Program-made: the position numbers and the translations under genes | The notes under the pieces: model-generated | What the model was told of the DNA's origin: nothing | What the model saw: the letters and a program-made list of their open reading frames with translations, nothing else | The model's database searches: none | In this document: positions 33,108 to 37,185 of the stretch, one piece after another | How the letters are laid out: each line of letters begins with the position of its first letter | Numbering within the stretch: position 1 is the first letter of the stretch | NCBI RefSeq assembly: GCF_004912275.1 | Contig: NZ_STGY01000025.1 | Span: 1 to 64,000, forward strand | Reading direction: 5' to 3' | DNA length: 64,000 nt | DNA from: Glycomyces buryatensis | Lineage (GTDB): Bacteria; Actinomycetota; Actinomycetes; Mycobacteriales; Micromonosporaceae

Positions 33108-34289
33108 ATGATGAACAAAGCCCTCAAAGGGTCATTGGCCGCTGCCGCAGGCATCGCGCTCAGCCTCACCGGCGTCGGCGCCGCCTTCGCGCAGGACGAG
33201 GCGCCCGAAGACACCGCTCCGGTGGCCTCCGGCACCGTCGATTCCAGCCAGGACGGCGTCGGCCTCAACGGCATGCTCGGCGAAGAAGAGGAGAACGTCT
33301 GGGCGAACCTCCTCCAACTGCACCTGAGCGAAGAAGACACCCGCCTGGTCTACTGCATCCAGATCAGCGAGCCGCTCCAGGACGGCAACGTGTACGAGGA
33401 GCGCCCCTGGGAGGAAATCCCGGTCGAGGACCTCCCCCTCGTGCTCGGCGTCCTCACCTCCGGCTACACCGGCGACAATGCCGGCACCCTCCTCGAAGAG
33501 GCCGGCGTCGCCGGCGACAACGAGGACTACGACGGCTACTCGTGGGACCAGATCGCCTACGCGGGCACCCAGGCCGCCATCTGGCACCTGACCGACGGCT
33601 GGGAGATCAACGCCGACGACCCCACCGTGGGTGAAGCGGCCGCCGACGGCGCCGTTCTGGCCGTCCAGGAATACCTGCTCACCGAAACCGAACCGGTGGA
33701 CGAGCCCGACTTCACTCCCGAGTTCGAGGTCGACAGCACCGAAGCCACCGTCGACGGCACCACCGCCGGCCCGTTCACGATCGGCACCAACCTCGGCCCG
33801 ATCGGGTTCACCCAGCCCGAGGGCGCGACCATCGTCGACGAGAACGGCGAAGAGGTCACCGAGTTCACCGACGACCAGACCGTCTACGTCGAGTTCGCCG
33901 ACGAGGTCTCCACCACCGTGAGCGTCCTGACCGACACGGTCACCTGGACCACCCCGATGGGCCGCGTCTTCGTGCCGACCTCGACCCCCGCCGCCGAGTT
34001 CGTGCCGCAGGCCGACACCGGCGCCGAGGACATCGACGGCCAGCGCGTCATCCTCGCGGAGGAGCACTCCGAGGAGATCTCGGCCGAGCTCGAATTCAGC
34101 ATCACGGTCGAAGAGGCTCCGTCCTCCGAAACCCCCCAGGCCACGCTGCCCACGACCGGTACCAGCCTGACCGCCGTTGCCGGAATCGGTGGCGCGGTGC
34201 TGGTCGCCGGTGTGGTCGCGCTGGTGCTCATGCGCCGCCGCGCCGCCACCGCCGGTGCCGACTGGGGCGATGACACCGAAGAGAAGTAG
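33108..34289 (+). CDS. LPXTG surface protein with thioester (TQXA) domain, copy 2
   Basis: A 393-residue paralogue of the preceding surface protein. It has a signal peptide ending AFAQD, a thioester domain with Cys83 (VYCIQIS) and Gln155 (GTQAAIWHLTDGW), an acidic beta-rich stalk, the sorting motif LPTTG (347-351), a membrane helix and a tail starting RRR. The two proteins share architecture and the mature-end sequence QDEAP but differ over most of their length, so the duplication is old. Start is ATG 33108 or 33111 behind AAGGGA. Both are very acidic. Confidence 0.88.
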   Translation: MMNKALKGSLAAAAGIALSLTGVGAAFAQDEAPEDTAPVASGTVDSSQDGVGLNGMLGEEEENVWANLLQLHLSEEDTRLVYCIQISEPLQDGNVYEERPWEEIPVEDLPLVLGVLTSGYTGDNAGTLLEEAGVAGDNEDYDGYSWDQIAYAGTQAAIWHLTDGWEINADDPTVGEAAADGAVLAVQEYLLTETEPVDEPDFTPEFEVDSTEATVDGTTAGPFTIGTNLGPIGFTQPEGATIVDENGEEVTEFTDDQTVYVEFADEVSTTVSVLTDTVTWTTPMGRVFVPTSTPAAEFVPQADTGAEDIDGQRVILAEEHSEEISAELEFSITVEEAPSSETPQATLPTTGTSLTAVAGIGGAVLVAGVVALVLMRRRAATAGADWGDDTEEK

Positions 34290-34346
34290 TCCGAAAGCCG
34301 CGTGCCCGGCACCGCCTGGGCACCGGCACGGAAACTGAGAGAACGA

Positions 34347-34381
34347 CCACACGCCCGCCGACTCAGTCGGCGGGCGTGTGG
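34347..34381 (+). terminator. Terminator after surface protein 2
   Basis: A 17-bp perfect inverted repeat (34347-34363 with 34365-34381), 58 nt after the stop codon. It ends one base before the -10-like box of the following leader ORF. Confidence 0.75.
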
Positions 34382-34387
34382 CATACT
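34382..34387 (+). promoter_or_regulatory. -10 box of the aromatic leader transcript
   Basis: CATACT (first base off consensus) lies 7 nt before the GTG of the leader ORF at 34395, the same distance as in other leaderless genes of this window. Confidence 0.45.
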
Positions 34388-34394
34388 TGGCGAC

Positions 34395-34451
34395 GTGAAC
34401 TTGAACGCGCGATTTTACTTTTACTACGGCACGGATCGTCCGAAGCCGTAG
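34395..34451 (+). CDS. Phe/Tyr-rich leader peptide (attenuator)
   Basis: An 18-codon ORF starting GTG reads MNLNARFYFYYGTDRPKP. The run F-Y-F-Y-Y (codons at 34413-34427) is what a ribosome-mediated attenuator sensing charged tRNA-Phe and tRNA-Tyr would contain. It ends 24 nt before a terminator hairpin with a T-run that stands in front of chorismate mutase, the enzyme at the branch to phenylalanine and tyrosine. Segments CTACGGC (34424-34430) and GCCGTAG (34445-34451) can pair. GTAGGTC (34448-34454) can instead pair with GACCTAC (34467-34473), giving mutually exclusive folds. Confidence 0.75.
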   Translation: MNLNARFYFYYGTDRPKP

Positions 34452-34475
34452 GTCGCGCTGAACACTGACCTACTG

Positions 34476-34502
34476 CCCCGGGCGAGTCGCCCGGGGTTTT
34501 TT
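34476..34502 (+). terminator. Attenuator terminator before chorismate mutase
   Basis: A 9-bp stem CCCCGGGCG / CGCCCGGGG (34476-34484 with 34488-34496), 3-nt loop, followed directly by six T (34497-34502). This is the most canonical intrinsic terminator in the window, and it lies inside a leader and not after a gene. Read-through should depend on translation of the leader peptide. Confidence 0.8.
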
Positions 34503-34559
34503 CACGCCCAGGGCCTGGACCCGGACTCTTGATCCGAACACTCTGAAGGAGAAGCCCTG

Positions 34560-34829
34560 ATGTCAAGCACGACCGCCGCCCAGACCGGCACCGACGAGCT
34601 CAACGAACTGCGCTCTGAGATCGATGAACTCGATGCCGAGATCGTCCGACTGTGGCAGCGCCGCGCCGAGGTCTCCAAACAGGTGGGACAGATCCGCATG
34701 GCCAACGGCGGCACCCGCCTAGTCCTCGACCGCGAGCGCGCCATCCTCGACAAGTACCGCACCGCCCTGGGCGAGGACGGCACCCAGATCGCCATGTTGA
34801 TTCTGCGAGCGGGCCGAGGTCCGCTATAG
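34560..34829 (+). CDS. Chorismate mutase (AroQ class)
   Basis: An 89-residue, all-helical AroQ-type chorismate mutase that converts chorismate to prephenate for phenylalanine and tyrosine. The family pattern LRSEIDELDAEIVRLWQRRAEVSKQVGQIR contains the first-helix Arg, and LVLDRERAILDKYR the second-helix Arg and Glu. It starts behind AAGGAG (34546-34551). It matches the small secretion-signal-free type that works with DAHP synthase in actinobacteria. Expression is probably controlled by the leader peptide and terminator at 34395-34502. Confidence 0.88.
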   Translation: MSSTTAAQTGTDELNELRSEIDELDAEIVRLWQRRAEVSKQVGQIRMANGGTRLVLDRERAILDKYRTALGEDGTQIAMLILRAGRGPL

Positions 34830-34890
34830 GAGGTCGAGTCCGTTCCGGTCGGGCAGGGCCGTGGGCCCGACCCGCCCAGACGGCCGCTGT

Positions 34891-34923
34891 GCCTCGGACC
34901 GTGTCAGGGGTCCGAGGCATAAT
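34891..34923 (+). terminator. Terminator of chorismate mutase with pcrA -10 box
   Basis: A 10-bp stem (34891-34900 with 34909-34918) closes the chorismate mutase unit. CATAAT at 34918-34923 begins on the last base of the stem and lies 9 nt before the pcrA start codon, so terminator and promoter abut. Confidence 0.55.
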
Positions 34924-34932
34924 TGACTTCCT

Positions 34933-37185
34933 ATGAATGACGCTTCCCAGGCCCTGCTGGCCGGCCTCAACGAACCGCAACGTCAAGCCGCTGAGCACGC
35001 CGGATCCCCGCTGCTCATCGTCGCGGGAGCGGGCTCGGGCAAGACCCGCGTCCTCACCCACCGCATCGCCCACCTGCTGTCCGCGCGCGGCGTGCACCCC
35101 GGCGAGATCCTGGCGATCACCTTCACCAACAAGGCCGCCGCCGAGATGCGCGAGCGCGTCGACGCCCTCGTCGGGCCCCGCTCGCGCGCCATGTGGGTCT
35201 CCACCTTCCACTCCGCGTGCCTGCGCATCCTGCGCCGCGAGGCCCACCGGCTGGGCTGGAAGTCGAACTTCACGATCTACGACACCGACGACGCCCGTCG
35301 CCTGCTCACCCAGATCGTCAAGGAGCTCGGGCTCGACTCCAAGAAGAACTCGCCGCGCTGGTTCGCCGCCGAGATCTCCCGGTTCAAGAACGAGCTCATC
35401 GGCCCCGAGCAGGCCGCCGACGCCGCCGACGACGCCAAGTCCCGGCTCATCGCCGACGTCTACTCCCAGTACACCGAGCGCCTGCGCCTGGCCGCCGCCG
35501 TCGACTTCGACGACATCATCGGCACCACCGGCCACCTGCTCCGGACCTTCCCCGAGGTGGCCGAGTCGTACCGGCTGCGGTTCCGCCACGTCATGGTCGA
35601 CGAGTACCAGGACACCAACCACGCCCAGTACGTGCTCATCCGCGAGCTCGTCGGCACCGGCGACAATGCCGCGGAGCTGTGCGTCGTCGGCGACGCCGAC
35701 CAGTCCATCTACGCCTTCCGCGGTGCCACGATCCGCAATATCGTGGAGTTCGAGCGCGACTACCCCGATGCCAAGACGATCCTGCTGGAGCAGAACTACC
35801 GCTCCACCCAGACGATCCTGGACGCGGCCAACAACGTCATCCGCAACAACTCCGAGCGCGGCCGCGAGAAGAAGCTGTGGAGCGACGTCGGCGACGGCCC
35901 GCGGATCCTCGGCCACACCGGCGACAACGAGCACGATGAGGCCGCCTGGGTCGCGAACCGCGTCGACGCGCTCGTGGACGAGTCGCAGACGAGCTTCGGC
36001 GACGTCGCGATCTTCTACCGCACCAACGCCCAGTCGCGGGCCTTCGAGGAAGTGTTCGTGCGCCGCGGCATCCCGTACAAGGTCGTCGGCGGCGTTCGCT
36101 TCTACGAGCGCAAGGAGGTGCGCGACATGCTCGCCTACCTCAAGCTCACCGTCAACGGCGACGACACCGTCTCGGCGATGCGGGTCGTCAATGTCCCCAA
36201 GCGGGGCGTCGGCGACCGGGCCGTGGCCGAGATCGAGGCGCTCGCCGCGCGCGAGCGGATCTCCTTCGCGGCCGCGCTGCATCGCGCCGACGAGGCCCCC
36301 GGGGTGTCCTCGCGGGCGCGGGGCGGCATCAAGCAGTTCTGCGAGATCATCGACGCCGCAACGGAACTGGCGCTCACCGCCCCGCCCGAGGAAGTGCTCG
36401 ACAAGCTCATCGCCGACACCGGCTACCTGGAGGGGCTCGAGCAGTCCACCGACCCGAGGGACGAGGGCCGGGTCGAAAACCTGCAGGAACTGGTGGCCGT
36501 CTCCCATGAATTCACCGAGCAGGTGGTGCGTGGGGAAGTGGACGCGGCCGACGACGACGAACCGGACGCGGCGGCCGACGTGGCCTCGTTCCTGGAACAC
36601 GTCGCACTGGTCTCCGATGCCGACTCGATCCCCGACCCGGAGTCCGAGGAGGGCGGGCAGGTCACGCTGATGACGCTGCACACCGCGAAGGGCCTCGAAT
36701 TCGACACGGTCTTCCTGACCGGCATGGACGACGGACTGTTCCCGCATGAGCGGTCGATGTCGAAGCCGACCGAACTGGAGGAGGAACGACGACTGGCCTA
36801 TGTGGGCCTGACGCGGGCCCGCAAGCACCTGCACCTGACCCGGGCCGGGACGCGGAACATCTTCGGGCAGCCGGAGTTCTATGCGGCGAGCCGGTTCCTG
36901 TCGGAGATTCCCTCCGGCCTGATCGAATGGAGCGAGTCGGCCCCGCCGCCATCCAGAGTCGTCAAAACGGGGAAGACGCCGTCGTTCGGCCAACCGATCA
37001 CGATGCGCAACCCGGCCGACGTGCCGTCACTGGAAGTCGGAGACCGGATCACCCACGACAAGTGGGGCCTGGGTCGAGTCGTGGAGCTCAAGGGCTCGGG
37101 CCCGAGGGCTCAGGCGCGCATCGACTTCGGAGACGGAGAACCGAAGTGGGTCATCCTCAGGCTGGCACCGGTGAGCAAACTCTAG
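34933..37185 (+). CDS. pcrA: ATP-dependent DNA helicase PcrA/UvrD
   Basis: A 750-residue superfamily 1 helicase for repair and removal of proteins from DNA. Motifs in order are Q-motif LNEPQRQAAEH, Walker A AGAGSGKTR, motif Ia TFTNKAAAEMRER, motif II VDEYQDTNHAQY, motif III GDADQSIYAFRGA, motif IV LEQNYRST, motif V TLHTAKGLEFDTVF, motif VI EERRLAYVGLTRARKHL. The C-terminal DRITHDKWGLGRVV begins the Tudor-like domain that contacts RNA polymerase. The length is normal. The start has no Shine-Dalgarno and a -10 box 9 nt upstream. Confidence 0.96.
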   Translation: MNDASQALLAGLNEPQRQAAEHAGSPLLIVAGAGSGKTRVLTHRIAHLLSARGVHPGEILAITFTNKAAAEMRERVDALVGPRSRAMWVSTFHSACLRILRREAHRLGWKSNFTIYDTDDARRLLTQIVKELGLDSKKNSPRWFAAEISRFKNELIGPEQAADAADDAKSRLIADVYSQYTERLRLAAAVDFDDIIGTTGHLLRTFPEVAESYRLRFRHVMVDEYQDTNHAQYVLIRELVGTGDNAAELCVVGDADQSIYAFRGATIRNIVEFERDYPDAKTILLEQNYRSTQTILDAANNVIRNNSERGREKKLWSDVGDGPRILGHTGDNEHDEAAWVANRVDALVDESQTSFGDVAIFYRTNAQSRAFEEVFVRRGIPYKVVGGVRFYERKEVRDMLAYLKLTVNGDDTVSAMRVVNVPKRGVGDRAVAEIEALAARERISFAAALHRADEAPGVSSRARGGIKQFCEIIDAATELALTAPPEEVLDKLIADTGYLEGLEQSTDPRDEGRVENLQELVAVSHEFTEQVVRGEVDAADDDEPDAAADVASFLEHVALVSDADSIPDPESEEGGQVTLMTLHTAKGLEFDTVFLTGMDDGLFPHERSMSKPTELEEERRLAYVGLTRARKHLHLTRAGTRNIFGQPEFYAASRFLSEIPSGLIEWSESAPPPSRVVKTGKTPSFGQPITMRNPADVPSLEVGDRITHDKWGLGRVVELKGSGPRAQARIDFGDGEPKWVILRLAPVSKL

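Follow-up and report, generated by a model that had tools for sequence, protein, structure and literature searches.

Organization of the region upstream of the chorismate mutase gene

The stretch of DNA analyzed here, referred to as the window, comprises 64,000 nucleotides of Glycomyces buryatensis, whose genome of 5.8 Mb is assembled in 87 contigs. On its forward strand it carries (34560-34829, with an ATG at 34560) the gene of a chorismate mutase of 89 amino acids, which is of the AroQ class and of the actinobacterial intracellular type: The protein matches PF01817 (3.3e-12), scores over the cut-off of the NCBIfam models PRK07857.1 and TIGR01808.1, and has its closest solved structures in the Rv0948c type (2.1e-21). 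The most similar chorismate mutases come from Glycomyces at 14 of 16 named loci. A pcrA/uvrD gene (34933) lies 3′ of the mutase gene, and two genes for thioester-domain LPXTG proteins lie 5′ of the leader.

Positions 34382-34559 hold, all on the forward strand, a -10 box, a leaderless ORF of 18 codons, a pause hairpin with a competing antiterminator, and a six-T terminator, which is followed by the chorismate mutase gene. The -10 element CATACT (34382-34387) is located 7 nt 5′ of the leader GTG, from which a leaderless transcript is predicted. A scan for sigma-70 promoters of the E. coli kind finds no promoter in 34280-34940; hence, there is no consensus -35 element. A near-perfect palindrome (34347-34381) directly upstream of the -10 box occupies the -35 position; it can also be seen by eye, with changed stem letters, in 14 named Glycomyces loci and may terminate the gene before it. 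The leader ORF (34395-34451; MNLNARFYFYYGTDRPKP*) runs from GTG (34395-34397) to TAG (34449-34451), encodes 18 residues, and contains the regulatory codons TTT TAC TTT TAC TAC (34413-34427) for Phe-Tyr-Phe-Tyr-Tyr, residues that correspond to the end products of the chorismate mutase. In the predicted pause hairpin, strand 1a (GCGCGAU, 34407-34413) pairs with 34452-34458 and strand 1b (CUACGGC, 34424-34430), which overlaps the last Tyr codon, pairs with 34445-34451; strand 2 (GCCGUAGGUCGCGC, 34445-34458) contains the leader stop and the inner 5′ arm of the antiterminator. This inner arm (GUAGGUC, 34448-34454) pairs with GACCUAC (34467-34473), and the outer 5′ arm (UCGUCCG, 34436-34442) pairs with 34479-34485, that is, with the 5′ arm of the terminator and the first base of its loop. 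The 3′ side of the antiterminator (34467-34485) thus comprises GACCUAC, the positions shared with the terminator (34475, 34476, and 34479-34484), and one loop base. The intrinsic terminator (34475-34502) has a stem 34475-34484/34488-34497, composed of a core (34476-34484/34488-34496) and the extra pair 34475-34497, a loop AGU, and six T at 34497-34502; a terminator scan of 34280-34940 returns this as its single site, with 0.4 expected from shuffles. The motif AAGGAG (34546-34551) is the probable ribosome binding site of the chorismate mutase gene. Sequence, folds, and terminator scan thereby confirm the components that the original prediction had named, namely a leaderless F-Y-F-Y-Y ORF, mutually exclusive stems, and a six-T terminator before chorismate mutase, and its statement that the upstream pairing partners overlap aromatic codons and the leader stop is borne out for the Tyr codons and the stop.

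A chance ORF was set aside as an explanation. Since Phe and Tyr make up 5.7% of the codons in the 34 long ORFs of high GC3 in the window, five such residues in a row are expected by chance with a frequency of ~6e-7 per position. Short ORFs with at least four F/Y within six residues occur twice on both strands of the window, and one of the two is the leader. The codon TTT accounts for 6 of 489 Phe codons (1.2%) in the 34 long ORFs and for both Phe codons of the leader.

The length of 18 codons, which the original prediction gave, is correct for the window but not general: Compared to the 21 other Glycomyces genomes, the window alone carries a 1-nt insertion after the aromatic run (34443-34451), which shifts the stop from TGA at 34459-34461 (21-22 codons) to TAG at 34449 (18 codons), leaves the aromatic run unaffected, and is either real or an assembly error. 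Under the assumed footprint, either stop would bring the ribosome over the inner arm of the antiterminator.

Predicted competition between the RNA folds

In the absence of a ribosome, the leader RNA (110 nt) is predicted to fold into the pause hairpin and the terminator at -47.6 kcal/mol, compared to a mean of -32.7 kcal/mol for shuffled sequences (z -4.85; 0 of 200 as low). A stalled ribosome was mimicked by omission of the RNA as far as 13 nt past the first nucleotide of the A-site codon. When the codon in the A site is Phe-1, Tyr-1, Phe-2, or Tyr-2, the RNA up to the terminator loop forms one hairpin (-25.2 kcal/mol), in which UCGUCCG..GC..GUAGGUCG pairs with UGACCUAC..GC..CGGGCGA; this antiterminator occupies 8 of the 10 bases of the terminator 5′ arm together with one base of the loop. 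For an A site on Tyr-3, five outer antiterminator pairs remain (-21.8 kcal/mol), and with the ribosome at the stop codon the terminator alone is left in the fold. At equilibrium, folding of the complete leader with a ribosome stalled on it still yields the terminator, alongside the inner antiterminator helix; for the A site on Tyr-2, this state is computed at -31.8 kcal/mol versus -25.2 kcal/mol for the antiterminator. Because the terminator forms at equilibrium despite the stalled ribosome, antitermination would have to be kinetic, which we infer to depend on the order of folding. Such a dependence on folding order is usual for attenuators.

The energy of the antiterminator was further compared with that of shuffled spacers. 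The window reaches z -3.1 (1 of 200 shuffles as low), and among 76 leaders of several families the mean is -2.4, with 60 below -1.64 and 16 missing this threshold (L040 at -0.1). At least five bases of the 5′ side of the hairpin pair upstream in 75 of the 76 leaders, a value that shuffles attain nearly as well; in 68 of the 76, more terminator-arm bases pair upstream than in the mean of the shuffles. In reading these counts, it has to be considered that the 76 rows are related and therefore not independent, that they include the doubtful leaders L056, L101, and L114, which were excluded from the codon count only, and that the hairpin chosen by the script is over-long or lies downstream in some rows, all of which were counted: 19 of 76 hairpins span at least 38 nt, and wrong hairpins were chosen, for example, in L033, L045, L058, L064, L089, and L122 as well as in L049, where it is shorter.

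Occurrence and covariation of the leader among relatives

For the distribution of the leader, upstream regions (460 nt) of 105 chorismate mutase genes of the class were collected via the mutase protein alone and subjected to a strict test that requires the hexamer [TC]ANNNT 6-7 nt before an ATG or GTG and at least three F/Y/W within seven residues; the duplicates L071, L080, and L085 were left out of these counts as well as of those on antiterminator energies and leader residues, and matches to second mutase copies (L127-L130, L132) out of the 105 regions. A leaderless aromatic leader is present in 77 of the 105 regions and missing by this test in 28. It occurs in 22 of 22 Glycomyces genomes (the source genome and 21 others), in all 14 genomes from other genera of the family, in 18 of 24 genomes from other families of the order, in 9 of 14 further f8 genomes, in 9 of 11 regions of the Streptomyces-like f31 genomes, and in 5 of 20 regions from other orders. 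Some of the 77 positives may be due to chance, above all those from other orders and L056; three of the six negatives of the order (L045, L119, L120) possess the aromatic ORF and lack the hexamer. Block-shuffled regions of 370 nt, as opposed to 460 nt for the real ones, yield a leader in 6 of 2280 cases. Of the 196 genomes sampled from the class, 125 have no match to this chorismate mutase. The aromatic run reads exactly FYFYY in 19 of the 22 Glycomyces genomes and FYLYY, FYFFY, and FYFYG in one each. The comparison of relatives for a conserved aromatic run, which the original prediction had proposed as a check, thus left its interpretation standing. Simpler forms of the leader, FFYGYR and FTYG, are found in other families and in another order, and f8 genomes have a hairpin without a T run. 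In the f8 genus g35, the regions upstream of the mutase in L085 and L087 are devoid of an aromatic leader and share the stretch GGTCTGTTTCACGGTGAA ... GTTCTGACACGAGGAGATGAATG, which may be a different regulatory element.

The position of the start codon was compared in the set of 76 leaders: 73 have a [TC]ANNNT hexamer 6 nt (41) or 7 nt (32) before an in-frame ATG or GTG, as selected by a script among in-frame starts and distances of 5-9 nt, compared to a background of 123 hexamers at 6-7 nt before any of 4767 ATG/GTG in the same loci. Within the Glycomyces runs, TTT accounts for 42 of 44 Phe codons, and codon positions 1, 2, and 3 are conserved alike (0.99, 0.99, and 1.00); leaders of other lineages mix TTT and TTC. 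As a rare codon is retained and third positions are conserved, it seems that the nucleotides, and not the peptide alone, are under selection.

The helices were evaluated in an alignment of 35 family leaders (A1), whose members are non-independent samples, and the outer arm was also evaluated with anchors on sequence in place of this alignment. The antiterminator is paired in 95.8% of its cells (~95% for the inner arm), versus 25-42% in slid controls and 92.4% in shuffled alignments, and 11 of its cells are changed on both sides, compared to a shuffled mean of 2.6 and a value that 0 of 500 shuffles reach. Of five measures of antiterminator covariation, two are weak: The number of pairs changed on both sides (2) is matched by 54 of 500 shuffles, and that of further pair types (10) by 37 of 500. 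For the outer arm, the 16 distinct, sequence-anchored arm pairs are paired to 87% versus 76% when the arms are reassigned (none of 5000 reassignments as high); it reads UCGUCCG/CGGGCGA in Glycomyces and GAGUCCG/CGGGCUC in many other genera. At its outermost position, 8 of the 22 Glycomyces rows have C-A and one has A-A, and the arm is interrupted by an internal mismatch in L036, L038, and L040. Pause hairpin and terminator together are paired to 96.9% (shuffled 95.5%), with 5 pairs changed on both sides, a number that 1 of 500 shuffles reaches; the helix of strand 1a is paired in 95.4% of cells, and that of strand 1b in 99.2%, with two pairs changed on both sides. The eight core pairs of the terminator are present in 35 of 35 leaders; in 12 rows, the innermost aligned pair is open. 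Judged from these aligned sequences, the predicted leader helices are preserved and show some compensatory changes, among them those in the outer arm.

A covariance model built from this alignment finds a match at E <= 0.01 in 119 of 121 family genomes, 118 of them at 4.5e-9 or better; the remaining match (G266, 0.0086) may be due to chance, and the two genomes without a match are 69% and 77% complete. The FFYGYR form is distant from the model. Among 200 genomes of the order, the model has matches in 92, many of them weak and some located away from the mutase. For all 53 best-match loci that were fetched (52 from the family, one from another family), a chorismate mutase gene lies directly downstream. 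Of 15 weaker matches that were fetched, L257 precedes a chorismate mutase gene, L256 and L258 precede a type I DAHP synthase gene (L258: PF00793, 7.7e-77), eight (L249-L255, L262) precede a threonyl-tRNA synthetase-like gene, a reading that was checked for one of the eight genes (PF00587, 2.3e-31), and four look like chance. The eight loci before the synthetase-like gene show leaders with ACG ACG ACG, a run that encodes Thr in one frame, together with a hairpin.

Comparison of the leaders across the pathway suggests that their codons follow the enzyme. Including 23 regions fetched via the covariance model, two of which stem from genomes already included, 97 of 114 chorismate mutase upstream regions have a leader: 94 of these contain Phe and Tyr only, one contains Phe only, and two also contain Trp. 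Upstream of type I DAHP synthase, a leaderless aromatic leader is present in 13 of 30 loci of the order, examined out of 65 places listed (L265-L272, L279, L282, L284, L287, L290; e.g., MQQRFYFWYGYRPGSPRRLVALH and MRFWYGYFRPPGADRVAERGVPR); all 13 have Trp in the seven-residue core, 12 combine Phe, Tyr, and Trp, and one has Tyr and Trp only. The leader therefore tends to list the amino acids to whose synthesis the enzyme contributes. No leader was found upstream of class II DAHP synthase (21), prephenate dehydratase (21), and pheS (20) of the source genome and its relatives (0 of 62 regions; three F/Y in six residues, 500 nt), although part of each 500-nt region lies inside the gene, most of all for pheS, because it was measured upstream of the Pfam domain. 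The source genome itself has a class II DAHP synthase without an aromatic leader and no type I DAHP synthase homologue at 1e-60.

Proposed mechanism, alternatives, and relation to known systems

The locus bears the hallmarks of an attenuator: a short ORF with a codon run for the end products of the pathway; an apparent intrinsic terminator between this ORF and the structural gene; and, according to prediction and covariation, an antiterminator that takes up the terminator 5′ arm and cannot form while a ribosome sits on the stop codon, the pause hairpin being the alternative fold. Conservation, compensatory changes, and competing folds support the interpretation as a Phe/Tyr attenuator, and we consider it very probable that the element is a ribosome-mediated transcription attenuator that senses charged tRNA-Phe and tRNA-Tyr and thereby controls chorismate mutase. 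From the elements, their conservation and covariation, and the competing folds, as read from sequence and predicted, we infer start site, termination, stalling, effector amino acids, and ribosome footprint as follows: Transcription would begin at the leader's own GTG (predicted at 34395). With ample Phe and Tyr, the ribosome would reach the stop codon and cover both antiterminator 5′ arms (34436-34442 and 34448-34454), which would leave the terminator (34475-34502) free to form and to end transcription. Under a shortage of either amino acid, the translating ribosome would stall on TTT TAC TTT TAC TAC and mask the first strand of the pause hairpin. Strand 2, thereby released, would pair with GACCUAC and the terminator 5′ arm; the terminator would then come too late, and transcription would continue into the mutase gene. 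Without a ribosome, the pause hairpin would form and the terminator would win.

The same architecture can be read in other ways. A uORF before whiB7/wblC senses general slowing of translation according to the portion of PMC13236596 at hand, and the leader might likewise respond to slowed translation, for instance by antibiotics, instead of Phe/Tyr supply: A ribosome stalled anywhere in the run yields the antiterminator, and TTT, rare in the long ORFs and dominant in the Glycomyces runs, would slow it. We regard this as unlikely, given that the residues track the enzyme (F/Y at chorismate mutase, F/Y/W at type I DAHP synthase) and that other lineages mix TTT and TTC. Even less credit is due to stalling by a nascent arrest peptide (e.g., FFYGYRSPVPV) rather than by uncharged tRNA. 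Similarity does extend past the aromatic run within several families, but this tail coincides with the pause hairpin, varies by lineage (RPSRRSSR, SPAAVGRA, YRSPVPV, RPAGCHGRAA), and is conserved in Glycomyces at third positions (0.91) as it is at first and second positions (0.89, 0.89). The least probable reading is a constitutive terminator that ends a short transcript without regulated antitermination and with an incidental ORF: While the terminator does form at equilibrium in every computed state, neither the covarying antiterminator arm nor the aromatic run at a fixed distance behind the -10 box would have a reason to exist.

If attenuation by Phe and Tyr is the correct reading, the leaders might belong to a larger actinomycete network of aromatic attenuation, with a branch-specific codon code, in which mutase leaders read Phe and Tyr and type I DAHP synthase leaders read Phe, Tyr, and Trp, and with a mutase attenuator that sets the dosage of the DAHP synthase partner; we put this forward tentatively, with somewhat less than even confidence. 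The accessible portion of PMC4281200 reports that the chorismate mutase of M. tuberculosis is poorly active unless complexed with DAHP synthase; if this kind of mutase depends on the complex, the attenuator would set the dosage of a partner and would thereby govern both the flux at the branch point and the control of the first enzyme of the pathway.

With respect to catalogued elements, a search of the window with Rfam 15 returned only three tRNAs and no leader match at gathering score, and six loci of relatives gave none over gathering score and 8 matches below it; a T-box or another Rfam 15 family was set aside on this basis. Five leader peptides tried against Pfam and NCBIfam had no match. 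The survey of Seliverstov et al. 2005 describes trp, ilvB, and leu leaders of Actinobacteria and, in the passages accessible to us, no conserved RNA structures before phenylalanine/tyrosine operons (PMC1262725), and a reannotation of S. lividans lists, in its accessible part, 8 leader peptides, none of them for Phe or Tyr (PMC8079986). Among the best-ranked literature matches, in the portions at hand, we found no actinobacterial chorismate mutase leader (including PMC4833913, PMC13236596, and PMC2965389). Four leader peptide strings likewise retrieved no related report from the literature. A comparative paper by Lopatovskaya and co-workers, reportedly of 2010, could already contain the element. 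As far as could be seen, the sequences thus point to an uncatalogued and widely conserved Phe/Tyr attenuator before chorismate mutase. The question of the original prediction whether the element is catalogued is answered in part: The accessible sources and Rfam 15 do not hold it, but a Phe-Tyr-Phe leader, AroR, is known before aroF according to the available part of its description. The original study of the AroR attenuator is said to be that of Neshat et al. 2014. The element would fill a gap, as the 2005 survey had none for Phe/Tyr operons in its accessible passages and AroR alone has been added since among the literature found. One gene with an attenuator would be shared by the whole family, many other families of the order, and Streptomyces-like genomes; the composition of the leader makes its amino-acid specificity directly testable, and the engineering of aromatic precursors in antibiotic producers is a possible use.

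The known trp, ilvB, and leu leaders of Actinobacteria, as far as the accessible text describes them, resemble the element in being short ORFs with regulatory codons, several of them leaderless and several with terminators, and differ in that they address other amino acids. The pheL-pheA attenuator combines a Phe-rich leader and an ordinary 5′ UTR with a bifunctional chorismate mutase-prephenate dehydratase. It shares with the Glycomyces element a Phe leader peptide that controls a chorismate mutase activity, but the enzyme is bifunctional and the leader is translated from an ordinary 5′ UTR, and no Rfam leader family matches the Glycomyces element over its gathering score. The portion of PMC11802643 at hand names pheL-pheA of Escherichia coli and describes the AroR leader (Phe-Tyr-Phe) before aroF, a DAHP synthase gene of Corynebacterium glutamicum, the transcription of which is raised under Phe limitation and does not respond to Tyr. 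By these partial descriptions, to which the comparison is confined, AroR is likewise actinobacterial and likewise places a Phe-Tyr-Phe leader peptide in the aromatic pathway; membership in the AroR type was nevertheless rejected, as AroR precedes DAHP synthase whereas the Glycomyces element precedes chorismate mutase.
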